Shown here piece after piece: positions 13,117 through 55,892 of a stretch of DNA of 64,000 nucleotides; positions within the stretch are counted from its first letter, which is position 1, and the number at the start of each line of letters is the position of its first letter. The notes beneath the pieces were generated by a model. That model saw only the letters and a list, made by a program, of their open reading frames with translations. It did not search any database and was not told the origin of the DNA. The DNA is from Hanstruepera flava (GTDB lineage: Bacteria > Bacteroidota > Bacteroidia > Flavobacteriales > Flavobacteriaceae), in NCBI RefSeq assembly GCF_023634025.1, contig NZ_JALJCW010000004.1, forward strand, positions 186,001-250,000, read 5' to 3'. The translations under genes and the position numbers were made by a program.

Positions 13117-14277
13117 TCACTTCAAGCTCTTTAGTATAAAATCTAAATTCTTATTAATGTTAGTATCATTAAGATAAGAATCCGTAAAGTATTTTGAAGA
13201 ATTTGCCAGTCCTAAATTTTGAAGCTTGTCAATAGTTTTCAAATACTCTAAAGACACTTTCCCAGTTAACAACGGATTTAAATCTTTGCCTTTTTTAGCA
13301 TATTTATATACCTTCTTTAAACCTGATAGATACAAATGGTCTTTTGTAAATCCGCCTCCCCTGTGCACACGTAAAGTTATAGCAAATGCTTTATCACGAT
13401 CTAATTTATACTGGCTGTATAATAAATCAAACGTATCTGAAAACGTATATCCTTTTATCAAGCTATCTACAGCTATAACCCGGTATGATAATTCTTTTAA
13501 ACGCGATAAGGTTAAACAACCCGACATATATTCAGAATAAACCGCTAAACCCTCTTGAGTCTCTACATTATTTGGAAAACCATTAGAAAAAATATGCAAC
13601 GGTTGCTTTACAGCATTAAAAGTTGTGACCAAATGCACACCTATTTCATGATTAGCAAGAACTTGTAATTGATTTTTACTGAATTTATGATTCTTTCTTA
13701 AAACCAAAGTTTTGGCATGGTTTTGCACCATTGCTGCTGCAGAAATATTGGTTGAAAATTTAATATGATATTCAAAATCATAACGCTTTGAAAAGTCTTC
13801 AAAATACGTTTTAGCATCTTGAGCATTATATAGCGGCAACATATCTTGATTAAAATCGCTATCATCAAAGCGCAAAACAAATTTGGCATTGTCTAGACTT
13901 TTTTCTGTGGGAGTACCAAAGCTTTTTAGACTATTATAATAAAATTTACGCCCTTGGTTAATGGTTTCAATACATTCAATCAACCCAGAATATTCATAAA
14001 TTATATCTTCATATAAATTTCGAATATCCTCATCTTCAATACGCTCAAGACGTTGAGAAAAAAATAGCCTATGTAATTTATAACCGTTGAACTTTAATTT
14101 TGGATAGTGAAAATTAGGCTCGTAATTAAACTTTGAGGCGTAGAATTGTTTTTTTTCACTTTCTATATTAAGTGGATTAATATAATTAAGCAATTCTATT
14201 TTTTTTACCAACCGGTTTAGATTGGCATCGATATCAAATAGGTCTTGATACTTACTTGTTAACTTTTCTGAAATCAT
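13117..14277 (-). CDS. QEGLA-motif (DUF1704) metallopeptidase-like protein
   Basis: A 386-residue member of the DUF1704 family, usually labelled flavohemoglobin expression-modulating QEGLA motif protein. It shows a zinc-peptidase core: H210-E211-x-x-x-H215 (HEIGVH) followed by Q241-E242-G243 in ETQEGLA, the likely third ligand. Eukaryotic relatives (MATCAP) are tubulin tyrosine carboxypeptidases, so C-terminal residue removal from a peptide is a sensible inference. No signal peptide. It is the last gene of a five-gene operon; its ATG overlaps the upstream stop codon by four bases. The bacterial substrate is unknown, and the historic name reflects an indirect effect. Confidence 0.88.
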   Translation of the reverse strand: MISEKLTSKYQDLFDIDANLNRLVKKIELLNYINPLNIESEKKQFYASKFNYEPNFHYPKLKFNGYKLHRLFFSQRLERIEDEDIRNLYEDIIYEYSGLIECIETINQGRKFYYNSLKSFGTPTEKSLDNAKFVLRFDDSDFNQDMLPLYNAQDAKTYFEDFSKRYDFEYHIKFSTNISAAAMVQNHAKTLVLRKNHKFSKNQLQVLANHEIGVHLVTTFNAVKQPLHIFSNGFPNNVETQEGLAVYSEYMSGCLTLSRLKELSYRVIAVDSLIKGYTFSDTFDLLYSQYKLDRDKAFAITLRVHRGGGFTKDHLYLSGLKKVYKYAKKGKDLNPLLTGKVSLEYLKTIDKLQNLGLANSSKYFTDSYLNDTNINKNLDFILKSLK

Positions 14278-15107
14278 TTACCTTGAAATGTATTATAAAA
14301 CGTTTCTGCGTGTTGAGGCAATCGCTCTTTTAGCTCACATTCAACAGAAGCAACTACTTCCGGGTATATAATTTGCTTGTATTCATCACAGTAAACTTTA
14401 GCAATTTCTGTTGCCAAAACTAAAGTATTTTTAAAGTTATTGGTTATATATCTTAAAAAATATCCGTTGCCATAGAACGTATCGTTTATTTTTGCGGTAG
14501 ATTTAATACCATTAGGTAATTTAATCTCTCCAAGACTATGCCTCCAAGACTCAATAATGCCTCCAAACCGCTCGTTGTCAACGTTGCTCGTGCCTAAATT
14601 CCAAGTTGGGACTTCCCTTTCCCAGCGTTGCCAGTTATAGCTGTGCATGTCATAAACAATACACACTCCAAACTTTTCTTCAATTTTAGAAATCAATGCG
14701 TTAACAACCTTATAAAAATTAGTATGCTTTTTTAGGCTCTTTTGTTTTTGTTCTTCTGTTAATGATTCTTTCCATAATTGTTTTCCCCAAGCAGTATCAA
14801 AAATAGCATCTTCAGGGAAACGGTTTAAATCGTACTCAAAACGGGAATCACAGCCAGCAATTACAATGGGATGGGACCATATCATCTTTTTGGTTTCTGG
14901 ATCTTCTTCATACCATCTATCATATTCAGTATGCAAGCAATTATCCCATAGTTCTTTTCGAAATTGATGACCGTCATGTACTGCTCCACAAACATAATGC
15001 ACATAATTATCAATTTTTAATGTAAAGCTGTAATCATCTGAAACAGCATGAAAAGTTTCTTCTGCCTCTATTTTTCTAATAATTTGACTAACCGATAGCT
15101 TTATCAT
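14274..15107 (-). CDS. N-formylglutamate amidohydrolase-like enzyme
   Basis: A 277-residue protein of the N-formylglutamate amidohydrolase (HutG-type) fold. Characteristic parts are GAVHDGHQFR (H44, H47), the DSRFEYDLNRFPE block at about 87-99 and VYDMHSYNW (D153, H155), which supply zinc ligands and substrate contacts. Classical members finish histidine degradation by releasing formate from N-formylglutamate, but no other hut gene is nearby. In this operon an amidase acting on a ligated small molecule is more likely. It overlaps the TerB-like gene upstream and the QEGLA gene downstream by four bases each, indicating translational coupling. Confidence 0.87.
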   Translation of the reverse strand: MIKLSVSQIIRKIEAEETFHAVSDDYSFTLKIDNYVHYVCGAVHDGHQFRKELWDNCLHTEYDRWYEEDPETKKMIWSHPIVIAGCDSRFEYDLNRFPEDAIFDTAWGKQLWKESLTEEQKQKSLKKHTNFYKVVNALISKIEEKFGVCIVYDMHSYNWQRWEREVPTWNLGTSNVDNERFGGIIESWRHSLGEIKLPNGIKSTAKINDTFYGNGYFLRYITNNFKNTLVLATEIAKVYCDEYKQIIYPEVVASVECELKERLPQHAETFYNTFQGK

Positions 15108-15445
15108 GCTGCATCATTTATAATTCGTTTTAACCAATTGAATACAACATGTTCCACTTGGTCGAATTCTCCATCGGCAAAAAATAGAATTTTCATATCT
15201 AAAAACAATTGTTTTAAATCTGATTTTGAATAATCATGTGTTTCCAGACCTTTTACAATCTTTTGGATACATTGATAATCATTATCATTTTTAAACTCAT
15301 CATAGACCATTTGATACGTATTCATATCTACTTTAGATAAAATAACATTACGTTCCTTATTTGTTTCTGATAAATTTGAATTTGCAGCATAAAACAATAT
15401 ATATGCTACCAATTCCTTTTTCGACCAATTTTGAACACTATCCAT
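15104..15445 (-). CDS. TerB-like small helical protein
   Basis: A 113-residue all-helical protein. The C-terminal LFFADGEFDQVEHVVFNWLKR matches the tail helices of TerB-like (tellurite-resistance/DjlA) domains, where an ADGxxxxxE motif binds metal or partners. Only part of the fold is clear, so the family call is moderate. It is sandwiched between the sulfurtransferase (nine bases upstream) and the amidohydrolase (four-base overlap). A scaffold or metal-sensing role in the operon is inferred, not shown. Confidence 0.6.
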   Translation of the reverse strand: MDSVQNWSKKELVAYILFYAANSNLSETNKERNVILSKVDMNTYQMVYDEFKNDNDYQCIQKIVKGLETHDYSKSDLKQLFLDMKILFFADGEFDQVEHVVFNWLKRIINDAA

Positions 15446-15454
15446 ATCTTTTCT

Positions 15455-16279
15455 TTAAGTTAAAGTGCCATATTCTGTCCACGAACCATCATAGACAGAC
15501 ACATTATTCTCTCCTATTAATTCTGCTCCCAATGCTAAAACACAAGCTGTAATTCCAGAACCACACGAAAAAACCATTGGCTTTTTAACGGTTTGAAAGT
15601 CTTGAAAAATATCTCGTATTTCATTTTCAGATTTCATTTTCCCATCATTCAATAAATATTGGAACGGCAGGTTTATTGAATTAGGAATGTTTCCACTACG
15701 CAACCCCTCACGTGGTTCTGCTTCCAAACCCTTGAAACGGGATTCGGAACGCGCATCTATAATTTGATGGGATTCATTTATGACGGCTTTTTGCATATCA
15801 TCAAAAAAGAGCATATTCCCCTGTCTTTCTAAAGCTAAAAAGTTTCCTTTTTCACCATTATAACTTTCCTTTTGACTTACTGGAAAAAACGCTTCAATCC
15901 ATGCTGGCAAACCTCCATCTAAAACCGCAATACTATTAAAACCAAACGACTTGAACAACCACCAAGCTCTTGGACTTGAATAAATACCCTTATCATCATA
16001 AACAACAATAAAGCTATCATTGTTAATACCTAAATTTTTAGCTTCTGTTTCAAACTGTTCTTTAGATGGAAAGGTATTAGGGAATTGTGCAGATGTATTA
16101 CTAAACTTATTTTTTATATCAAAAAAACGGGCTTGTGGAATACAAAAATTGTTTGTTACACTATCGCCTTCTGTGACTTTTGGAATAGAAGCATCAAGAA
16201 CAATTAAATTGGTTGCGTCTAAATTTCTCTTTAACCACTCCACAGAAACAATGGGCTTATGGAATTTTGTTATCACCAT
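15455..16279 (-). CDS. Sulfurtransferase (3-mercaptopyruvate sulfurtransferase / rhodanese type)
   Basis: A 274-residue protein with two rhodanese domains in tandem. The N-terminal one is inactive (about 1-135) and contains VYDDKGIYSSPRAWW and VLDGGLPAW. The C-terminal one carries the catalytic loop C239-G-S-G-I-T, the CGSGxT form typical of mercaptopyruvate sulfurtransferase as opposed to the CRKGVT of thiosulfate rhodanese. It would move sulfur from 3-mercaptopyruvate to a thiol acceptor in the cytoplasm. It lies 13 bases after the ATP-grasp gene and 9 before the TerB-like gene. The operon context suggests its sulfur may go to the operon product, which is speculation. Confidence 0.9.
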   Translation of the reverse strand: MVITKFHKPIVSVEWLKRNLDATNLIVLDASIPKVTEGDSVTNNFCIPQARFFDIKNKFSNTSAQFPNTFPSKEQFETEAKNLGINNDSFIVVYDDKGIYSSPRAWWLFKSFGFNSIAVLDGGLPAWIEAFFPVSQKESYNGEKGNFLALERQGNMLFFDDMQKAVINESHQIIDARSESRFKGLEAEPREGLRSGNIPNSINLPFQYLLNDGKMKSENEIRDIFQDFQTVKKPMVFSCGSGITACVLALGAELIGENNVSVYDGSWTEYGTLT

Positions 16280-16292
16280 AGCTCGTCTCTAA

Positions 16293-17330
16293 TTAGGCAT
16301 CTTCAACAGCTTTACGCAATCTAGAACGTCTATTAAAAGCTTCTAAATTATCTAAAACCTTACTTTCAAGAAAATCGATAACTCGTTCTTCTACTCTATA
16401 CTTGTTTTTGTAAACCTTATTAATATAGGTTATACCGCCAGGTGACATAACGTTTACTTCTACAAGTTTACCACCAATAACATCAATACCTACAAAGTAT
16501 AATCCGTCTTTTACTAGTTTTGGACCAATTTGTTTACAAAGGGCTTTTTCGGCTTTTGTAAGTGAATGTTTCTGCACCGATCCTCCTGCTGAAACATTAG
16601 AACGATGGTCATCATTACCTGGAACACGTTTCATAGCTCCAATTGGTTCGCCGTTAAGCATTAAAATTCTAACATCGCCTTCGTCTGCCCCTTCAATATA
16701 ATCTTGTAAAATAACATAGTTCGATGTTCCGTCACCACTGTTAATATAGAAATCCAATAAGGAGTTAATATTACTCATCGCAGATTTTTCAATCAAAATA
16801 ACGCCAGAACCACCAAAACCATTTAAAGGTTTCAGTATCATTTTATCCGCTTTAGATTCTTTTATCTGCCTAATAAGGTAATTCTTGTTTTTAGACACAT
16901 GTGTGTTAGGGATAATATTACTATGGGCATCACCAAAAGCTGCAGTATAGAGCTTATTGTTTGCCTCACGCATACCTTGCAAAGAATTTATAATAAACAC
17001 ATCATCTTTTACGGAATCCAAAAAATTAAGCATCAAGGGATCTAAAGGTGGATTGGCTCTAAAAAAAATAGCATCAAAACCAGCCAAAGGCAACATTTCT
17101 TCTCGTAATTGTGCTTTTTTATAGAATGCTTTTAATGAAGAAGGTACTTTTTCCATGCGCCCTATGACAGTACAAAACGCGTTGGTTACACTATCCCTTA
17201 TGGTTAGATTTGCTGGTGTGCAAATGGCTACTCCATGCCCTCTTTTAACACACTCTTTTATTAGCGCTAAACTTGTATCGTTATCAGGATCAATATGCTC
17301 CCAAGGGTACATTAAAAAACAAACATTCAT
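16293..17330 (-). CDS. GshB-like ATP-grasp ligase
   Basis: A 345-residue ATP-grasp enzyme related to prokaryotic glutathione synthetase. The N-terminal preATP-grasp part has FLMYPWEHIDPDNDTSL and FFRANPPLD; the ATP-grasp core shows KPLNGFGGSGV (167-177), DVRILMLNGEPIGAMKR (219 on) and the Mg-binding VEVNVMSPGGI (290-300), close to the ENVTSPTG of GshB. Such enzymes join a carboxylate to an amine through an acyl phosphate. No glutamate-cysteine ligase is in the window and the organism encodes BshA, so glutathione is a doubtful product. First gene of the five-gene operon; upstream AT-rich spacer of 45 bases to the symporter gene. Confidence 0.87.
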   Translation of the reverse strand: MNVCFLMYPWEHIDPDNDTSLALIKECVKRGHGVAICTPANLTIRDSVTNAFCTVIGRMEKVPSSLKAFYKKAQLREEMLPLAGFDAIFFRANPPLDPLMLNFLDSVKDDVFIINSLQGMREANNKLYTAAFGDAHSNIIPNTHVSKNKNYLIRQIKESKADKMILKPLNGFGGSGVILIEKSAMSNINSLLDFYINSGDGTSNYVILQDYIEGADEGDVRILMLNGEPIGAMKRVPGNDDHRSNVSAGGSVQKHSLTKAEKALCKQIGPKLVKDGLYFVGIDVIGGKLVEVNVMSPGGITYINKVYKNKYRVEERVIDFLESKVLDNLEAFNRRSRLRKAVEDA

Positions 17331-17375: not shown

Positions 17376-18698
17376 TTATTTGACTTCATCGTAATGGTCA
17401 TCCCAATTCTTAACTTTTGGAGCACCCAACTTCCCTACAGATTTGGCTACTAACATAGATACTGTAGCATCTCCCGTTACATTAACAACAGTTCTACACA
17501 TATCTAAAGGTCTATCTACTGCGAAAATCAAAGCTAAACCAATGGGCAATAATTCTGCGGGCATCCCAACAGACTCAAGCACTATAACCAACATAACCAT
17601 TCCTGCACCAGGTACTGCTGCACTACCTATTGAAGCCAACAATGCGGTTAAAACAATGGTAATTTGGTCGGCAAAAGTCAACTCTAATCCCAAAGCTTGA
17701 AAAATAAAAACAGCCGCTACAGCTTGATATAAGCTAGTACCATCCATATTTATGGTGGCACCAACGGGTAAAACAAAACTTGAAACTTCTTTATCAACAC
17801 CAATATGTTCTTCAACACGTTCCATCGTTACTGGTAACGTAGCAGCACTACTACTTGTAGAAAAAGCTAGCAACTGTGCTGGACTGATTTGCTGTAAAAA
17901 CCAAAATGGATTCTTCTTTGTCATGGTACCGACCAAAATAGAATAGAAAACTATCATCAAAGCTAAACCTAACAACACCACACCTGCATATTTTATTAAA
18001 GCCAACAAAATATCTGGATCATCTGAACTCACAACAACATTAGCTAAAAGCGCAAAAACAGCCACTGGTGCTGTAAGCATAATTAAATCAACCATCTTGA
18101 GTACGACATCATTAAGGGAATCAAATATGTCCTTTAATGGTTTTGATCTGTCCTCTCCTATCAATAGCATAGAAATACCTAGAAATATTGAAAAGAAAAT
18201 AACCTGAAGCATCAAACCATTATCACTCAATGCGCTAAATGCATTATCTGGAACCATATCCTCTAAAAACTGTAATGGCCCACTCTCTTTTTGTTTAGAG
18301 GCTTCTGCTATTTTGCCTTGAACACTGCTATTTGTTGAGTACGTTTGTGTTAATTTCTCTATTGTCTCATCAGAAACACCATTACCAGGATTAAAAGTGT
18401 TTACTAATAATAGGCCTATACTTATGGCTATTACAGTGGTAAAGACATAAGTAACTATGGTTCTCAAGCCAATATTCTTAAATTTAGAAATGTCTTTTAA
18501 ATCTGAAATTCCCTTAATTAAGGATGCAAGAATTAAAGGAATGGCAATCAACTTCAAGAGTTTCACAAAAATACTTCCAATGGGTTTTATCCAATCAACA
18601 GTAAAATCTTTTCCTCCAACCTGAAGCATGATAAATCCAAAAACTAGACCTAAAACCATGCCTATCAATATTTGCCAATGTAATGCGAGTTTTTTCAT
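17376..18698 (-). CDS. Dicarboxylate/amino acid:cation symporter (DAACS family)
   Basis: A 440-residue transporter with about eight transmembrane helices plus two re-entrant loops. The family hallmarks are present: the serine-rich hairpin STSSSAATLPVTM, the NMDGTSLYQAVAAVF helix and the C-terminal DRPLDMCRTVVNVTGD segment that binds substrate and sodium. It imports glutamate, aspartate or C4 dicarboxylates with Na+ or H+. The cytoplasmic loop (about 110-150) is longer and polar. It sits 27 bases downstream of aroC and 45 bases before the ATP-grasp gene on the same strand; a shared transcript is possible but not shown. Confidence 0.93.
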   Translation of the reverse strand: MKKLALHWQILIGMVLGLVFGFIMLQVGGKDFTVDWIKPIGSIFVKLLKLIAIPLILASLIKGISDLKDISKFKNIGLRTIVTYVFTTVIAISIGLLLVNTFNPGNGVSDETIEKLTQTYSTNSSVQGKIAEASKQKESGPLQFLEDMVPDNAFSALSDNGLMLQVIFFSIFLGISMLLIGEDRSKPLKDIFDSLNDVVLKMVDLIMLTAPVAVFALLANVVVSSDDPDILLALIKYAGVVLLGLALMIVFYSILVGTMTKKNPFWFLQQISPAQLLAFSTSSSAATLPVTMERVEEHIGVDKEVSSFVLPVGATINMDGTSLYQAVAAVFIFQALGLELTFADQITIVLTALLASIGSAAVPGAGMVMLVIVLESVGMPAELLPIGLALIFAVDRPLDMCRTVVNVTGDATVSMLVAKSVGKLGAPKVKNWDDHYDEVK

Positions 18699-18725: not shown

Positions 18726-19787
18726 TTATTGATATAATTTATTTAAAAGATAAAAGTCAGCCATAACCAATGCCGCCATAGCTTCAACTATTGGAATAGC
18801 TCTTGGAACCACACAAGGGTCATGTCGTCCTTTTCCTTGCATTTCAACAATATTTCCAGATTTATCCAATGCATCTTGTTTTTGAATAACAGTTGCAACT
18901 GGTTTAAAAGCCACTCGAAAGTAAATATCCATGCCATTGCTTATGCCTCCTTGAATACCACCTGATAAATTGGTTTTGGTACTACCGTCATTATTAAACA
19001 AATCGTTATGATCACTTCCTTTCATTTTTGCCCCACAGAATCCACTGCCATATTCAAAACCTTTTACTGCATTTATGGACAACATCGCTTTTCCTAATTC
19101 GGCATGCAGCTTATTAAAAACAGGTTCTCCAAGCCCTATTGGTACATTTTGAAGAACACAAGTAACTGTTCCTCCAATTGTATCTCCAGCTTTACGAATC
19201 TCCTTTATGCGTTTTATCATTTTATCTGCTACTTCAGCATCAGGACAACGCACTGCGTTTGATTCAGTTTTAGAAAAATCTAAATCTTGATACGGTTTTT
19301 CTAAAAAAATATCTCCAACAGAAGACGTATAGGCATTTATCTTAATTTCAGAAATTATTTGCTTGGCTAATGCTCCAGCAACTACGCGGCAAGCTGTCTC
19401 ACGTGCTGAACTACGACCACCACCTGTATAATCGCGAATACCATATTTTTTTTCATAAGTATAATCGGCATGACTTGGCCTAAAAACATCTTTAATATGT
19501 GAATAGTCTTTGGATTTCTGATTTGTATTTTTAATTATAAATCCTATCGAAGTTCCTGTGGTAATGCCCTCAAAAACACCAGATAAAAATTCAACTGTAT
19601 CTGGTTCTTTACGTTGTGTTACAATTTCAGACTGACCAGGTTTACGCCTATTGAGTTCGTTTTGAATAGCTTCAAAATCTAAACTGATTCCTGATGGGCA
19701 TCCATCTATTACACCTCCTATAGCTACACCATGCGATTCTCCAAAAGTGGTTAGTTTTAATATATTTCCAAAGCTATTTCCAGCCAT
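18726..19787 (-). CDS. aroC: Chorismate synthase
   Basis: A 353-residue chorismate synthase, which removes phosphate from EPSP using reduced FMN to give chorismate, the last shikimate step. Signatures: [21 protein letters not shown] at the N-terminus, [30 protein letters not shown] and the C-terminal [20 protein letters not shown] block with conserved Arg and His residues. Length is normal for the bacterial bifunctional-independent form. Catalysis needs FMN reduced by another protein. The gene heads a minus-strand group with the symporter. Confidence 0.97.
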
Positions 19788-19964: not shown

Positions 19965-20816
19965 ATGTCTTATTTGAAAAACAAAAGAAAAATAGAGATA
20001 GCTGTAATCTCAGACGTACATTTAGGAACCTACGGTTGCCACGCCAAACCTTTATTGACCTACTTAAATAGTATTCAGCCAAAAAAACTGATTTTAAATG
20101 GAGATATAATTGACATCTGGCAATTTAGCAAACGGTATTTTCCTAAATCGCACATGAAAGTTATTAAGCGCATCATGGATATGGCTTCTAATGGCGTTGA
20201 AGTTATTTATATTACTGGAAACCATGATGAAATGCTTCGAAAATTTAGCGGTACTTATATTGGAAATATTTCAATAGTAGATAAAGCCATAATTGAATTA
20301 GACGGTAAACGTGCCTGGTTTTTCCATGGTGATGTTTTTGATTTATCTATACAAAACGCCAAATGGCTGGCTAAATTAGGTGGTTATGGTTACGACACGC
20401 TTATTCTTTTAAACCGAATGGTTAATTGGTGTTTAGAAAAATTAGGACGCGAGCGTTACTCGTTAGCCAAACGCATTAAAAACCGTGTTAAAGGCGCAGT
20501 TAAATACATTAGTGATTTTGAAAATGTTATAACAGATTTAGCCATTGAAAATGGCTATGACTATGTGGTTTGTGGGCATATACATCAACCAAAAATGCTT
20601 ATAAAATCAAATAAGTATGGTGAAACCCAATATTTGAATTCGGGAGATTGGGTTGAAAATTTTACAGCTTTAGAATATCAATTTAAACGTTGGAAATTAT
20701 ACCGCTATAGTGAAGACAAACTCTCTCCATTTTTTGCAGATGAAGATATTAAGGAAATGGAAATAAAAGATCTAATAGCAGCCATTACTATTGTTGATCC
20801 AAAAACCTCAAAGTAA
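19965..20816 (+). CDS. UDP-2,3-diacylglucosamine diphosphatase-like metallophosphatase
   Basis: A 283-residue calcineurin-type phosphoesterase. Metal ligands are seen in the order expected: D17 and H19 (SDVHLG), D47 (NGDIIDIW), N86-H87 (GNHDE), HGDVFD and GHIHQP. This matches LpxH, which cleaves UDP-diacylglucosamine to lipid X and UMP in lipid A synthesis at the inner membrane, and is the usual form in Flavobacteria (longer than the 240-residue E. coli LpxH). Other metallophosphatase roles cannot be ruled out. Its stop overlaps the convergent oxidase gene by nine bases. Confidence 0.8.
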   Translation: MSYLKNKRKIEIAVISDVHLGTYGCHAKPLLTYLNSIQPKKLILNGDIIDIWQFSKRYFPKSHMKVIKRIMDMASNGVEVIYITGNHDEMLRKFSGTYIGNISIVDKAIIELDGKRAWFFHGDVFDLSIQNAKWLAKLGGYGYDTLILLNRMVNWCLEKLGRERYSLAKRIKNRVKGAVKYISDFENVITDLAIENGYDYVVCGHIHQPKMLIKSNKYGETQYLNSGDWVENFTALEYQFKRWKLYRYSEDKLSPFFADEDIKEMEIKDLIAAITIVDPKTSK

Positions 20817-23726
20817 AGCTTCTTTTAAAATAGTAATTGGGTGTTTTGCATTGCGTCCAGTCCCATCTTTTATTTGATGTCTACAACTGGTTCCATTGGC
20901 AGCAATAACAACTTCATCACCAGATTTTCTAACAGCTGGAAATAAAGTCTGTTCCCCTATAGCCATACTTACATCATAGTGTTCTTTTTCATAACCAAAA
21001 CTTCCAGCCATACCACAACAACCACTTGGTATAATGGTTACCCTATAGTTTTTAGGTAAATTCAAAACGTCAAAAGTTGATTTTTGATTACTTAAAGCTT
21101 TTTGATGACAATGCCCATGAAATTTGATGGTTTTAAATTCTGAAGTAAATTGTTCAGTACGAATATTTCCCAATACTATTTCGTTTTGAAGAAACTCCTC
21201 AATTAGATAGGTATTTGAAGCTATTATCTTTGCATTGGTCCTATCATCTGCTAATTTTAAATATTCATCTTTAAAAGTTAAAATTGCTGAAGGCTCAATA
21301 CCTATTAATGGTGTTTCTTTTGATAATAAATTCTTATAAAGTCGAACATTTTCATTAGCCACCTGTTTGGCTTGTTCCAGAAAACCTTTAGATAAAAACG
21401 CGCGACCAGACTCCTTATTAGGCAATATATTCACCTTATAATTTAGTTGCTCTAGAAGATTAATAGCATCCTGACCAATAATGGTATCTAGATAGTTGGT
21501 AAACTCATCAACAAAAAAATAAACTTCTTTAATATAATTATTACTAATATCCTCTTTTTCTTTGTTTTTAAACCAATTATATAAACTAACACTATAAATG
21601 TTTGGAATAGTCCGATTTGGAGCTATACCCAATGATTTTTTTAAAAGAAAACCGGAAACTTGATTAGAAAACATAAAATTGATAAAACCCGAAAAAGTAC
21701 TTCCAATAGCATTTAGCTTATTGTTATACGCGAATACTTTAGCACGCAAACTCGAACCATTTACTTTTTGATATTGATACTCAAATTCTGCTTTTAATGC
21801 TGCAACGTTAACACTACTTGGACATTCACTAGCACAAGCTTTACAACTTAAGCACAAATCAAAAACTTCAACTAATTCTTGATGGTTGAATTTGTTAACT
21901 TCATCAGATTGGGTTAAAAATTCCCGAAGTGCATTTGCCCTCGCTCGCGTTGTATCCTTTTCACTCCTAGTAGCACGATAGCTTGGGCACATGGTTCCAC
22001 CAAACTCTGGTAGTTTCCTACAATCTCCTGAACCATTGCATTTTTCTGCTTCACGCAAAACACCTAATGACTCTGAAAAATCTAAAAGCGTTTCTATTCC
22101 AGGTTCTACTCGACCTGGTACATAACGTAAGGATTCATCCATAGGAAACGCATCTACAATCTTTCCTGGATTAAAAATATTGTTTGGGTCGAAAGCTTTC
22201 TTTATCTGCTTAATAATCTCATAATTCTTTTCACCAATCATCAACGGAATAAATTCTGCTCGCACAATGCCATCACCATGTTCACCACTCATAGAGCCAC
22301 CATATTTTTTAACTAAATGTGCAACATCGGTAGTTATTTTTCGAAATAATGCAACATCAGCTTTCTTTTTTAAATTCAAGATTGGTCGTAAGTGCAACTC
22401 GCCTGCTCCAGCATGAGCGTAATAAACGGCTTGTTGTTGGTATCCATCCATTATTGCAGTAAAGTCCCTGATGTAATGGTTTAAATCGGGTATTGCAACA
22501 GCAGTGTCTTCAATACAAGGGGCTGTTTTTTTATCGCCAATAATATTACCCAATAGGCCCAATCCCGCTTTTCGCAAATTCATAGCCTTGTCTATATCTT
22601 CACCTATCAATAATGGATTAGCATAACTCAACCCTACAGATTGTAATGTTTCCACCAAAGCAATGGCCTTTGCATGGGCAGTATCTAAATTTGCATCTCG
22701 AACTTCACACATTAAAATGGCCACAGGATCGCCTTGTATAAACTGTCGATTAGCCTCTTGCGTTTTATTGTGTTTAGTAAGGTCCAAAATGGTTTTGTCC
22801 ATCATTTCACAAGTAAACAAATCGTGCTGCATAACTGGTTGAACAGTAGTTAAACAATCATCAATACTTGAAAAGTGAGCCGCAACCATAATACTGTTTT
22901 CAGGAGGCAAACTATCTAACTTTAAAGTGATCGCGGTTGTAAAAGCCAGAGTTCCTTCACTGCCTGATAAGAGTTTACACAGGTTTAAAGGTATGTCAGA
23001 ACCTGAAAATGGTTCAGTTTTAATAATTTCATCGACAGCATATCCTGTATTACGTCTATGAATGGTTTCTTTTGGAAATTGGGTTCGGATTTCTTCTTGA
23101 ACACGTTCTGAATGTAATTCCTGATTAAGTGTTCGGTATATACTACCCTCTAAATTTTTCAATTTTAGTTTATCTTGAAATTCAGATTCAGTGATATTAC
23201 TAAAAGTAACCGGACTTCCATCAGACAACAAAGTTTTTAAAGCCAAAACTTTATCACGTGTCACACCGTACTTAATAGATGTTGTTCCTGACGAATTATT
23301 ACCTATCATCCCACCAATCATACAACGGTTAGAAGTGGACGTGTTCGGGCCAAAAAACAGTCCGTGAGGTTTTAAAAAATTATTGAGTTCATCACGAACA
23401 ACACCTGGCTGTACAGTTATGGTTTTATTGGTTTTGTTAAAATCTAAAATAGCATTGAAGTGTTTTGAAACATCTACAACAATGCCTTTGCCTACACATT
23501 GGCCAGCCAATGACGTTCCTGCTGTTCTGGGAATTAAAGACGTTTTGTGCTGATTCGCAAAATCAATAAGGCACTTTAAGTCGTTTTCGTTTTTTGGAAC
23601 AGCAACAGCTAACGGTAACATTCTATAAACTGATGCGTCTGTGGCATAAAGTGTTTTCATTAAATCATCAAAATGAAGCTCACCTTCCAATAATTCATTC
23701 AGTTTATTTAAGTATTTTAATTCCAT
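20808..23726 (-). CDS. Fused GlcD/GlcF-type FAD and iron-sulfur oxidase
   Basis: A 972-residue flavoprotein joining two modules. The N-terminal half is an FAD-binding oxidase of the D-lactate/glycolate type (LIPRTAGTSLAGQCVGKG, MIGNNSSGTTSIKYG, SGEHGDGIVRAEF). The C-terminal half is an electron-transfer part with a 4Fe-4S site (CLSCKACASECPSSVNV), a second Cys set (CNGSGDCRK, GTMCPSYRATRSEKDTTRARA) and cysteine-rich CCG segments (FHGHCHQKALS, SGCCGMAGSFGYEKEH). It probably oxidises a 2-hydroxy acid and passes electrons to quinone. The substrate is unknown; D-lactate is a fair guess. No signal peptide. Confidence 0.9.
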   Translation of the reverse strand: MELKYLNKLNELLEGELHFDDLMKTLYATDASVYRMLPLAVAVPKNENDLKCLIDFANQHKTSLIPRTAGTSLAGQCVGKGIVVDVSKHFNAILDFNKTNKTITVQPGVVRDELNNFLKPHGLFFGPNTSTSNRCMIGGMIGNNSSGTTSIKYGVTRDKVLALKTLLSDGSPVTFSNITESEFQDKLKLKNLEGSIYRTLNQELHSERVQEEIRTQFPKETIHRRNTGYAVDEIIKTEPFSGSDIPLNLCKLLSGSEGTLAFTTAITLKLDSLPPENSIMVAAHFSSIDDCLTTVQPVMQHDLFTCEMMDKTILDLTKHNKTQEANRQFIQGDPVAILMCEVRDANLDTAHAKAIALVETLQSVGLSYANPLLIGEDIDKAMNLRKAGLGLLGNIIGDKKTAPCIEDTAVAIPDLNHYIRDFTAIMDGYQQQAVYYAHAGAGELHLRPILNLKKKADVALFRKITTDVAHLVKKYGGSMSGEHGDGIVRAEFIPLMIGEKNYEIIKQIKKAFDPNNIFNPGKIVDAFPMDESLRYVPGRVEPGIETLLDFSESLGVLREAEKCNGSGDCRKLPEFGGTMCPSYRATRSEKDTTRARANALREFLTQSDEVNKFNHQELVEVFDLCLSCKACASECPSSVNVAALKAEFEYQYQKVNGSSLRAKVFAYNNKLNAIGSTFSGFINFMFSNQVSGFLLKKSLGIAPNRTIPNIYSVSLYNWFKNKEKEDISNNYIKEVYFFVDEFTNYLDTIIGQDAINLLEQLNYKVNILPNKESGRAFLSKGFLEQAKQVANENVRLYKNLLSKETPLIGIEPSAILTFKDEYLKLADDRTNAKIIASNTYLIEEFLQNEIVLGNIRTEQFTSEFKTIKFHGHCHQKALSNQKSTFDVLNLPKNYRVTIIPSGCCGMAGSFGYEKEHYDVSMAIGEQTLFPAVRKSGDEVVIAANGTSCRHQIKDGTGRNAKHPITILKEALL

Positions 23727-26244: not shown

Positions 26245-29163
26245 TTAATCAATAATCGACTCGTAGATAAGTCGTTGTATTTCAGTCCTAATATTTTCTT
26301 TAAGCAATGTATTGGTATCAGAACTTGGAAATGTTCTATTGGCCAAAAACACATAAACAATTTCTTCATCAGGATCAGCCCAAGCATAAGTGCCAGTAAA
26401 TCCAGAATGACCAAAACTGGTCATGGATAAACAGCCACAGGTTGGGCCAGAATCACCTAATTGAGGTTTGTCAAACCCAATACCTCTCCTATTGTCGTTG
26501 TCACAATAATAGCAGGTATTAAACTTATCTAAAGTTTCTGTTTTAAAATAACGTTTGCCACCATAATAACCCTTTTGTAAATACATTTGCATGATTTTAG
26601 CAACATCGTTAGCATTGCTAAAAACTCCTGCATGACCACCAACACCGCCTTGCATTGCAGCTCCCATATCATGAACATAACCCTGTACTATTTGGTATCG
26701 GTAATATCTATCATCTTCAGAAGGCACAATATTCTTATTACTAAACTTACTGCTTGGGTTGTAAGTGGTATAATTAGCTCCTAAAGACTTGTAAAAATGA
26801 TCCTGAACCAACTCACTTAACGATTTATTGTAATATCCTTCAATATACTTCTTTAAAATGTAGTAAGGCAAATCACTGTAACGATAACGCAAACGACTTA
26901 ATAATTCTGAATCTCTAATAATAACTTGCATACTGTCTACATAGTCCTTACGTAAATACAACTCATCGGCTACTTTTATGTTAAAATCAGCAGTTGGTGC
27001 TTTTCTATAATACTTAATACTAGGATGCTTTGTTGAGTCAAGCGTGGCAAAATAAAATGGAATCCAAGGTTTTAACTTGGCATAATGCGACAGCATTTCT
27101 TTTAGAGTAACATTGGCTTTGTTTGAGTTTTCATAATCTGGTAAAATTTCTGATAACTTGGTATCTAAACTTACAACACCTTTTTCTTCCATTTCCATCA
27201 ATAAAGGTAATGTTGCCAAAATTTTTGTTAGTGAAGCTACATCATAAATATCATTAAACTTTACTGGTTCTGCATCTTTACCATAAGTATGTCGTCCAAA
27301 GTTCTTATTATATATAACTTTACCCTTTCTAGCTACAAGCAATTGAATGCCAGGAGTCATTTCTTGATCTACAGCATATTGAGCAACAGAATCTATTTTG
27401 CTCAATCGTTTAGAATCCATTCCTACACGCTCCGGAATGCTATAACTTAAATTTGACAGCGTATTATATGATATTCCATCTCCAAATTTATATGCATCTT
27501 GTATGGAAACTGGCAATACGCCTTTGGCTGGAACTGATCCAAAAATAATCTGTGCTGATTTTTCTTGCGCTGTCTTACTGTTTTGATAACTAACCACTAA
27601 CCCATCTATATTTTCAAACGTATCAATATCAATAAGCGCATAAGGTTTAACAAAGGCATCCAAAATAACCGTGTTATTTCGGGCAATTTCGTACAACCAT
27701 ACCAATTCTATATCCGTAAACTTATAGTCTTTCCAAGGGTGGTCGTTAGAACGATGAAATCCTACAACAACAGTATTGTAAGCTTTTAGCTTTGTTATTA
27801 GCTCATCAAGATTCTCTGCTGATACCTCATGTACTTTAGTATATTTTTGAAGTTCTTTAAAAAAAGGCGAACCATCATCATCGCCCAATTTCACATAAGC
27901 AACTTTTTTAGATTCTAGTTTTCTAATAGGAAGGATACTATTTTTGTTTTTAACAACAGTAATCGCATTTTCAATAGCGGTTTCATACAATAACTGATCC
28001 GAAATACGATTTAAATCTTCAACTAGGTTTTCTGTTTCAATAGGCTTAAAGTCATGCAAGCCTACTTTGAATTTTGCCATCAGTATTTTTTTTACTGAAT
28101 GCGCCAATCGCTCTTCAGTTATAACTTCGGTTTCATAAGCTTCCTTAATTTTTTGAATCGCTTTTGGCACATCTTCTGAAATTAACAATACATCATTTCC
28201 AGCTAAAAAAGCCGCCAAATCAATATTTCCTGGCTCACTGAATTCTGAAACGCCTTTCATTTCCAAAGCATCGGTATAGATAAGTCCTTTAAAGCCAAGG
28301 CTGTCTTTTAAAATATCTGTAACAATGTGTTTAGAAATTGACGATGGGAATCCAGAACGCGATTCTAAGGCAGGAACATTTAAATGTGCAACCATAACAC
28401 TAGACAAACCATGCTTAATAAGCTCACGATAAGGATATAGCTCTACAGAGTCAATACGTTTTTCATCAAAATTGATTGTAGGCAATGTTTTATGCGAATC
28501 GGTTTCGGTATCTCCATGTCCAGGAAAATGCTTTGCATTTGCCAAAACTCCAGCATCTTGCATACCTTTCATAAAAGCCAACGCTTTTTCTGTTACATTG
28601 TCTTTATCTTCGCCAAAAGATCGATTACCAATTATTGGATTTAATGGATTGGTATTGATATCAACCACTGGAGCAAAATTGAAATGCACGCCTATTCGTT
28701 TACAATGTTCACCAATATGATAACCTACTTGCTCAACTATTTTATTGTCTTTAATAGCCCCTAAAGTCATATTCCAAGGAAAAGCAAAAGTAGAATCTAA
28801 ACGCATGTTTAAACCCCATTCTGCATCCATCCCTATCAATAATGGTGTTTTAGATAACTCCTGTAATCTATTGTTTAATTTTGCCTGCGCGACTGGACCA
28901 CCTGTAGAATAAATAATCCCTCCAATATGCTGATTCATTATAAGCTGACTAATAATATTTTCATGCTTTAAACCTTGATTGGAAAATGCTCTAACCATGA
29001 AAAGTTGCCCAATTTTTTCGTCAACAGACATGCTATTATACACACTATCTACCCATTGTTCTTGTTTAACGACATCAGCAGCCAACAATGGACTAGTGGT
29101 ATTTTGAGCAATAATAAAATTAAAGGGTAGGATAATCGTCAAAAGGACTAATATCTTGCGCAT
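26245..29163 (-). CDS. Secreted GH3 beta-N-acetylglucosaminidase fused to a serine hydrolase (beta-lactamase-like) domain
   Basis: A 972-residue exported protein (signal peptide about 1-20) with two enzymes. The N-terminal GH3 domain (about 40-370) has KHFPGHGDT (211-219), the D222-S-H224 acid/base pair of NagZ-type enzymes and D298 in YTDALEM as likely nucleophile; a GH3 C-terminal domain follows (about 400-555). The C-terminal part (about 585-965) is a class C beta-lactamase/penicillin-binding-like serine hydrolase with S644-L-T-K647, YSD and an HSGFTGT box. Together they suit peptidoglycan turnover: amino-sugar removal plus peptide or ester hydrolysis in the periplasm or surface. The pairing is known in Bacteroidota, and the substrates are unproven. 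Confidence 0.9.
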   Translation of the reverse strand: MRKILVLLTIILPFNFIIAQNTTSPLLAADVVKQEQWVDSVYNSMSVDEKIGQLFMVRAFSNQGLKHENIISQLIMNQHIGGIIYSTGGPVAQAKLNNRLQELSKTPLLIGMDAEWGLNMRLDSTFAFPWNMTLGAIKDNKIVEQVGYHIGEHCKRIGVHFNFAPVVDINTNPLNPIIGNRSFGEDKDNVTEKALAFMKGMQDAGVLANAKHFPGHGDTETDSHKTLPTINFDEKRIDSVELYPYRELIKHGLSSVMVAHLNVPALESRSGFPSSISKHIVTDILKDSLGFKGLIYTDALEMKGVSEFSEPGNIDLAAFLAGNDVLLISEDVPKAIQKIKEAYETEVITEERLAHSVKKILMAKFKVGLHDFKPIETENLVEDLNRISDQLLYETAIENAITVVKNKNSILPIRKLESKKVAYVKLGDDDGSPFFKELQKYTKVHEVSAENLDELITKLKAYNTVVVGFHRSNDHPWKDYKFTDIELVWLYEIARNNTVILDAFVKPYALIDIDTFENIDGLVVSYQNSKTAQEKSAQIIFGSVPAKGVLPVSIQDAYKFGDGISYNTLSNLSYSIPERVGMDSKRLSKIDSVAQYAVDQEMTPGIQLLVARKGKVIYNKNFGRHTYGKDAEPVKFNDIYDVASLTKILATLPLLMEMEEKGVVSLDTKLSEILPDYENSNKANVTLKEMLSHYAKLKPWIPFYFATLDSTKHPSIKYYRKAPTADFNIKVADELYLRKDYVDSMQVIIRDSELLSRLRYRYSDLPYYILKKYIEGYYNKSLSELVQDHFYKSLGANYTTYNPSSKFSNKNIVPSEDDRYYRYQIVQGYVHDMGAAMQGGVGGHAGVFSNANDVAKIMQMYLQKGYYGGKRYFKTETLDKFNTCYYCDNDNRRGIGFDKPQLGDSGPTCGCLSMTSFGHSGFTGTYAWADPDEEIVYVFLANRTFPSSDTNTLLKENIRTEIQRLIYESIID

Positions 29164-55609: not shown

Positions 55610-55693
55610 GGAGAGGTGCCAGAGTGGTAATGGAGCAGATTGCTAATCTGTCAACGCGTAAGTGTTGCCCGGGTTCGAATCCCGGTCTCTCCG
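55610..55693 (+). tRNA. tRNA-Ser(GCT)
   Basis: An 84-base serine tRNA with a long variable arm. Acceptor GGAGAGG pairs with TCTCTCC (one G-T pair), the anticodon loop is TTGCTAA with anticodon GCT, and the T arm is CCGGG-TTCGAAT-CCCGG. It decodes AGC and AGU. CCA is not encoded in full, as the sequence continues CAAA. Its A-starting codons are targets of TsaD. Confidence 0.95.
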
Positions 55694-55715
55694 CAAACAG
55701 TATAATAAAACTATT

Positions 55716-55790
55716 CGGGGTGTAGCGTAGCCCGGTTATCGCGCCGCGTTTGGGACGCGGAGGTCGCAGGTTCGAATCCTGCCACCCCGA
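55716..55790 (+). tRNA. tRNA-Pro(TGG)
   Basis: A 75-base proline tRNA; acceptor CGGGGTG pairs with CACCCCG, with A as discriminator. Anticodon loop TTTGGGA gives anticodon TGG, and the T arm GCAGG-TTCGAAT-CCTGC is intact. It decodes CCN. Confidence 0.95.
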
Positions 55791-55818
55791 CTTTTTATTT
55801 ATTTACTAAACTTCTTTT

Positions 55819-55892
55819 GGTCGCGTAGCTCAGCTGGATAGAGCATCTGCCTTCTAAGCAGACGGTCACAGGTTCGAATCCTGTCGCGATCA
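55819..55892 (+). tRNA. tRNA-Arg(TCT)
   Basis: A 74-base arginine tRNA; acceptor GGTCGCG pairs with CGCGATC (one G-T), discriminator A. Anticodon loop CTTCTAA gives anticodon TCT, which reads AGA and AGG. Last of the three-tRNA cluster; a terminator follows four bases later. Confidence 0.95.

Follow-up and report, generated by a model that had tools for sequence, protein, structure and literature searches.

In work of 2009, Iyer, Abhiman, Burroughs and Aravind are said to have predicted systems for peptide synthesis or tagging in which ATP-grasp ligases are paired with peptidases of unrelated families. Several of the enzyme families concerned here are individually well described. In the glutathione synthetase GshB, the ATP-grasp domain ends C-terminally in a PT loop that is tied to glycine binding; relatives of the N-formylglutamate-amidohydrolase-like (NFGAH) proteins act on small N-acyl amino acids; and 3-mercaptopyruvate sulfurtransferases (MST) are recognized by the active-site loop CGSGxTA. 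The MATCAP-type peptidases TMCP1/2, in turn, act on tubulin tails (PMC10499314). In the 64,000-nucleotide stretch of the Hanstruepera flava genome analysed here (the window), a GshB-related ATP-grasp ligase (GRASP1), an NFGAH-like hydrolase and a MATCAP/DUF1704/QEGLA metallopeptidase are encoded in one operon. They are the core of a real, conserved module of one ligase and two hydrolases that is found in more than one phylum and to which two optional genes, for an MST and a TerB-like protein, can be added. With a probability of roughly 0.4, this core would run a cycle in which an amide is made and trimmed, yielding a small product of peptide-like nature.

The five reading frames lie on the minus strand, with gaps of 13 and 9 bases followed by two 4-base overlaps (Table 1), and their coordinates confirm the arrangement given in the original prediction, which was made from the letters of the window. 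That prediction described all five genes as a possible ligation-and-trimming operon; both linkage and idea hold for the ATP-grasp, NFGAH and QEGLA genes, the MST and TerB-like genes being accessories. Scattered genes without a shared order were looked for and not seen: the order GRASP1-NFGAH-QEGLA, on one strand, is kept at 72 of 80 named loci. The remaining eight comprise L113, whose stretch begins too close to show GRASP1, and seven loci with QEGLA only, behind aroC and a symporter gene. At 43 named loci GRASP1 and NFGAH are direct neighbours, their tblastn matches overlapping in 31. Because the 80 named loci are the best 80 of 588, and a further set of 60 neighbourhoods was picked among loci with a QEGLA match, both sets are skewed to close relatives; some genomes are common to the two.

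The same association is seen in a sample of 149 genomes of the family, where a short form of QEGLA occurs in 65 genomes, NFGAH in 63, GRASP1 in 60, and a long form of QEGLA and a second ATP-grasp ligase (GRASP2) in 21 each. NFGAH is present in all 60 genomes with GRASP1, which is never found without it. The genes are also physically close. At a limit of 8 kb, 60 of the 63 NFGAH genes have GRASP1 nearby and equally many (60 of 63) have short QEGLA nearby, as do 59 of 61 GRASP1 matches; all 23 GRASP2 matches have a long QEGLA in the same range. These figures are counts rather than independent events because the genomes are related; the ATP-grasp counts omit weaker matches (about 64 bits and below, among the matches listed), and two matches cut by contig ends, an ATP-grasp in G162 and a QEGLA in G194, were scored as present. 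Among the omitted matches is a 72-residue ATP-grasp fragment in G152, 49% identical and with a stop codon, possibly a remnant of GRASP1. Another genome, G157, has neither a QEGLA nor a GRASP1 match and carries an NFGAH (52% identical) about 2.7 kb past the symporter (G157:C49:7469-12288), as if part of the module had been lost.

On a broader scale, the MATCAP profile PF08014 finds one gene in the window's genome and is matched in 77 of the 149 family genomes, whereas a sample of the phylum gave matches in 10 genomes out of 148, both samples including the window's genome. GRASP1 at E<=1e-60 was found in 8 of 296 phylum genomes, seven of the same family (the window's included) and one of another family of the class; the nearest named relatives, among the matches listed, belong to Hanstruepera and Formosa. 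Conservation of order and co-occurrence, within the family and across phyla, is more than chance.

Outside the phylum, related trios are encoded on rhizobial plasmids (Pararhizobium, Aminobacter and Sinorhizobium meliloti), where NFGAH is followed by a long QEGLA and by a gene annotated as glutathione synthase/synthetase; in S. meliloti 1021 the trio occupies about 1122942-1126743 of pSymB. On Photobacterium plasmids, a GRASP1 60% identical to that of the window adjoins a single gene of 662-665 aa in which NFGAH and QEGLA are fused. Proteins joining the FGase and MATCAP domains were also found at L093, in another family of the class (667 aa), and in Vibrio (663 aa), whose record has no ligase annotated beside the fusion; in Pseudoalteromonas, a 426-aa QEGLA protein has neither partner annotated beside it. 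The N-terminal region of the long QEGLA proteins, about 230 residues, has no Pfam match in the two proteins scanned, and a profile of nine such sequences aligns to NFGAH (hhalign 95.2%, E 2.7e-8). The region is read as a degenerate NFGAH domain: the AIHxG, DLNR and DxHSYN motifs are absent from all nine, an EEDP remnant persists in one, and the two presumed metal-binding histidines of NFGAH are missing. At L078 and L079 the two versions meet in hybrid operons, in which GRASP1, MST (in L078) and NFGAH precede a long QEGLA and GRASP2, which brings the two ligases together. Genes that belong to a single cluster follow GRASP2 at six loci (L082, L085, L089, L092, L095 and L096); the L082 member, the only one profiled, is an AstE/AspA-type deacylase (PF24827), a hint at acyl-acidic-amino-acid chemistry.

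The two hydrolases keep their presumed catalytic residues. The NFGAH-like protein matches the FGase profile above its cut-off, and its predicted structure (pLDDT 87.5) best matches 2q7s (E 1.2e-10, TM 0.71); together with conserved presumed metal and base residues, this places it among the PF05013 proteins. The residues H44, E67, E68, R89, D93, N95, R96, D153 and E234 do not vary among the 13 bacteroidotal and pseudomonadotal sequences compared, and H155 is conserved with a single Tyr in the Vibrio fusion (L181). Roles are assigned by analogy with M14 enzymes, under which these positions would be metal ligands, base and carboxylate-binding arginines kept across phyla. The QEGLA protein belongs to PF08014, with a profile match over the cut-off and an HExxxH...E metal site whose H210, E211, H215 and E242 are invariant, and it matches the KIAA0895L structure 7z5g (2.1e-6). 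Its score against the NCBI QEGLA family TIGR02421 is 308.8 bits, below the threshold of 338.65. HExxxH and the downstream EG are present in 125 of 125 short QEGLA sequences (three with QEGLS and one with QEGMA), including 11 whose loci lack GRASP1 and NFGAH.

MST and the TerB-like protein are considered accessories because they occur at only 23 and 21 of the 80 named loci, respectively, always between GRASP1 and NFGAH. This leaves the sulfur-bearing modification envisaged in the original prediction on weak ground. The window's MST has two rhodanese stretches (Rhodanese 3.2e-25) and the characteristic loop, which among 35 relatives reads CGSGITA in 29, CGTGITA in three, CGSGLTA in two and CGSGVTA in one; against the NCBI 3-mercaptopyruvate sulfurtransferase model PRK11493 it scores 209.6 bits, under the cut-off of 250. 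Of the five family names first proposed, four are borne out by Pfam profiles, while the 113-aa protein matches no TerB profile in Pfam or NCBIfam at E<=0.1. Its predicted structure (pLDDT 90) is closest to PG1108 (2h5n; Foldseek probability 1.00, E 0.2, TM 0.60), which we take to be TerB-like, and its sequence contains ADGEFDQVE, a TerB-type motif, making a TerB-like identity plausible, not proven. MST and the TerB-like protein probably work together, since they share one reading frame of 381-386 aa at four loci (L065, L125, L127 and L128).

In the proposed cycle, the GshB/RimK-related ligase would couple ATP use to the attachment of an amino acid, most likely an acidic or a small one, to an acceptor that resembles a small peptide. 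The NFGAH-like protein, as a putative zinc hydrolase, would cleave an amide next to a free carboxylate, and the MATCAP-type peptidase would trim C-terminal residues; where present, MST and the TerB-like protein would probably form one accessory unit for a step involving sulfur or metal. The activities, the direction of flow, the substrate and the product are all inferred. The operon may modify a peptide or protein, and a small (iso)peptide akin to glutathione is considered a more likely product than a tag on a protein. Synthesis is suggested to be central because the ligase is the most conserved part, with a mean pairwise identity of 0.81 compared to 0.77 for AroC, 0.66 for NFGAH and 0.63 for QEGLA.

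Several observations weigh against this proposal. The ligase exceeds the cut-off of the glutathione synthase model PRK05246 (280.2 against 272). At 7 of 80 named loci, QEGLA with intact motifs stands with neither GRASP1 nor NFGAH, and 5 of the 65 family genomes with short QEGLA lack both; in three family genomes with QEGLA (G202, G263 and G284) no GRASP1, NFGAH or GRASP2 was found. The QEGLA-only loci that keep the metal-site motifs are L042, L058, L063 and L076, and L151, L161, L162, L167, L175, L176 and L179. This persistence indicates that the peptidase can act alone, apparently for a purpose separate from that of the module. Mirror-tree signal is modest and not clean: given AroC distances, partial correlations are 0.44 for GRASP-QEGLA, 0.33 for GRASP-NFGAH and 0.22 for NFGAH-QEGLA, with symporter pairs at 0.06-0.25 and GRASP-symporter (0.25) above NFGAH-QEGLA. 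Finally, to our knowledge the only characterized MATCAP relatives act on tubulin tails, that is, on protein.

The last point leads to the alternative that survives best, a doubtful one in our estimate, in which the substrate is the C-terminus of a protein: the ATP-grasp enzyme would add a residue, as tubulin tyrosine ligase and RimK do, and the MATCAP and M14-like NFGAH enzymes would remove it, in a bacterial analogue of the tubulin tyrosination and glutamylation enzymes. MATCAP membership and its invariant short-QEGLA motif, the tubulin-tail activity of TMCP1/2 cited above, a RimK profile match of the ligase (7.4e-18) and the fold matches that follow the NFGAH structures, which are weak and to M14 metallocarboxypeptidases (4b6z, E 7.8e-4, TM only 0.39), all favour it, and no recurrent small precursor gene stood out among reading frames of at least 70 aa in the 60 neighbourhoods. 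However, the GSH-S_N domain of the ligase is typical of small-peptide substrates, and the small N-acyl amino acids used by NFGAH relatives also argue against a protein. A fuller version, with ligase, carboxypeptidase and hydrolase writing and erasing a C-terminal amino-acid mark on a cellular protein as the bacterial counterpart of the tubulin toolkit, is rated as unlikely; if true, the pairing would predate its use on tubulin or have arisen independently of that use.

Less probable still is a catabolic or salvage route, in which N-acyl or gamma-linked peptides, taken up or arising as waste, would be degraded by the hydrolases, and one of the products would be re-ligated or capped by the ligase. 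The ratio of two hydrolases to one ligase, the lineages that keep QEGLA alone and the AstE/AspA-type gene of a variant locus fit such a route, which is opposed by the high conservation of the ligase and by the lack of a dedicated transporter, the neighbouring symporter being background synteny.

Ordinary glutathione synthesis, with the ligase as GshB and the hydrolases as unrelated peptidases, is improbable. The ligase does resemble GshB: GSH-S_ATP (1.7e-55) and GSH-S_N both exceed their Pfam cut-offs, PRK12458 gives 463.7 (cut-off 408) besides the PRK05246 score above, and the best solved-structure match is E. coli GshB (1gsa, phmmer E 5.6e-38). Against this identity, TIGR01380 reaches 236.4, below its cut-off of 299.05, and module ligases have PGG or PGA where PT[CG] stands in the GshB-type proteins of the four bacteria used for comparison (E. 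coli, Gordonia, Paracoccus and Desulfocapsa). The loop is SPGG in 115 of 115 aligned GRASP1, the window's included (the other 114 comprising 109 distinct sequences), SPGG or SPGA in all 15 GRASP2 sequences from the neighbourhoods, and TPGG in each of four copies from rhizobia. In Gordonia the GshB-type gene adjoins a glutamate-cysteine-ligase-family gene, and on a Desulfocapsa plasmid (L190) a gshB-annotated ATP-grasp gene has a C45 peptidase gene and a radical SAM gene as neighbours, so that a ligase and a peptidase are paired there too. In the window's genome, neither GCS2 nor Glu_cys_ligase (PF04262) was matched, and among 20 module-bearing genomes GCS2 was found in three and Glu_cys_ligase in none, control genomes being matched in both searches; PF08886 was found neither in the window's genome nor in those 20, with no positive control matched either. 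Glutathione synthesis by the usual route thus appears unlikely in this host, and the constant company of NFGAH across the family adds to the case.

That the cluster is mere frozen gene order of one bacterial family is highly improbable, since although aroC and the symporter prove that such order occurs at this locus, the same trio recurs in Pseudomonadota, as fusions, and without aroC or symporter in the available stretch at 11 of the 80 named loci, some on short contigs. The symporter was considered as a module member and rejected as background gene order, because the aroC-symporter pair stays together where QEGLA is absent: of 20 QEGLA-less genomes, 13 have the two no more than 1 kb apart, counted by eye with a symporter of the window's family (12 of 19 if G157, which keeps NFGAH, is excluded; the adjacent symporters of G021, G171 and G174 share only 35-60% identity with that of the window, in two cases over part of its length).

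Table 1. Genes of the operon and its same-strand upstream neighbours (window coordinates).
Feature	Position	Strand	Remarks
GshB-related ATP-grasp ligase (GRASP1), core	17330-16293	-	345 aa; GSH-S_ATP + GSH-S_N; loop EVNVMSPGGI
3-mercaptopyruvate-type sulfurtransferase (MST), accessory	16279-15455	-	274 aa; Rhodanese; loop CGSGITA
TerB-like helical protein (plausible), accessory	15445-15104	-	113 aa; predicted fold and motif
NFGAH-like hydrolase, M14-like fold, core	15107-14274	-	277 aa; PF05013 4.8e-12
MATCAP/DUF1704/QEGLA metallopeptidase, core	14277-13117	-	386 aa; PF08014 2.6e-100; HEIGVH and QEGLA
Dicarboxylate/amino-acid symporter (SDF), judged outside the module	17376-18698	-	Pfam; upstream of GRASP1
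aroC	18726-19787	-	Upstream of symporter

The symporter and aroC had been omitted from the original prediction. Scans for promoters and terminators did not find sites in excess of those in shuffled sequence. A phage or defence origin of the module was also considered and rejected, with no match in PADLOC and a single weak RimK-like match in PHROG. Elsewhere in the window are found an FAD-linked oxidase of 972 aa whose second half carries 4Fe-4S domains (20808-23726, minus strand), a further 972-aa protein with a glycoside hydrolase family 3 domain and a beta-lactamase-type serine hydrolase domain (26245-29163, minus strand), and three consecutive tRNA genes (55610-55892, plus strand).

Study of the module might uncover a thiol, a peptide or a protein mark not described before, as well as a role of MATCAP-type enzymes outside tubulin. 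With GRASP1 and NFGAH in 60 of 149 family genomes and a related trio in S. meliloti, its function could be approached in a tractable bacterium. Current annotations name the ligase "glutathione synthetase/synthase" and the peptidase "flavohemoglobin expression-modulating", and both names may mislead. Targeted searches of the open-licence PMC literature showed, in titles, abstract openings and passages, no paper on the ATP-grasp/NFGAH/QEGLA trio, nor on the degenerate NFGAH-like domain, the paired GRASP2/long-QEGLA subsystem or the MST-TerB fusion.

Compared with known systems, the ligase shares with E. coli GshB its two domains, and differs from it in having the loop SPGG in place of SPTC, in a host where no GCS2 or PF04262 partner was detected and in the association with NFGAH. 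The NFGAH-like protein shares the FGase profile and the fold (TM 0.71-0.74) of N-formylglutamate amidohydrolase, but falls far below the HutG equivalog model for a true N-formylglutamate deformylase (17.4 bits against a cut-off of 278.75), and none of the ten window proteins profiled belongs to a histidine-utilization family. With MATCAP/TMCP (KIAA0895L), the peptidase has in common PF08014, HExxxH and the downstream E of (Q/E)EGLA, whereas it is bacterial, 386 aa long and operonic with a ligase; a tubulin substrate is not expected. As a whole, the locus resembles the neighbourhoods reportedly predicted by Iyer and colleagues, with a ligase beside unrelated peptidases; its enzyme families are established ones, and a comparable prediction may have been published before.

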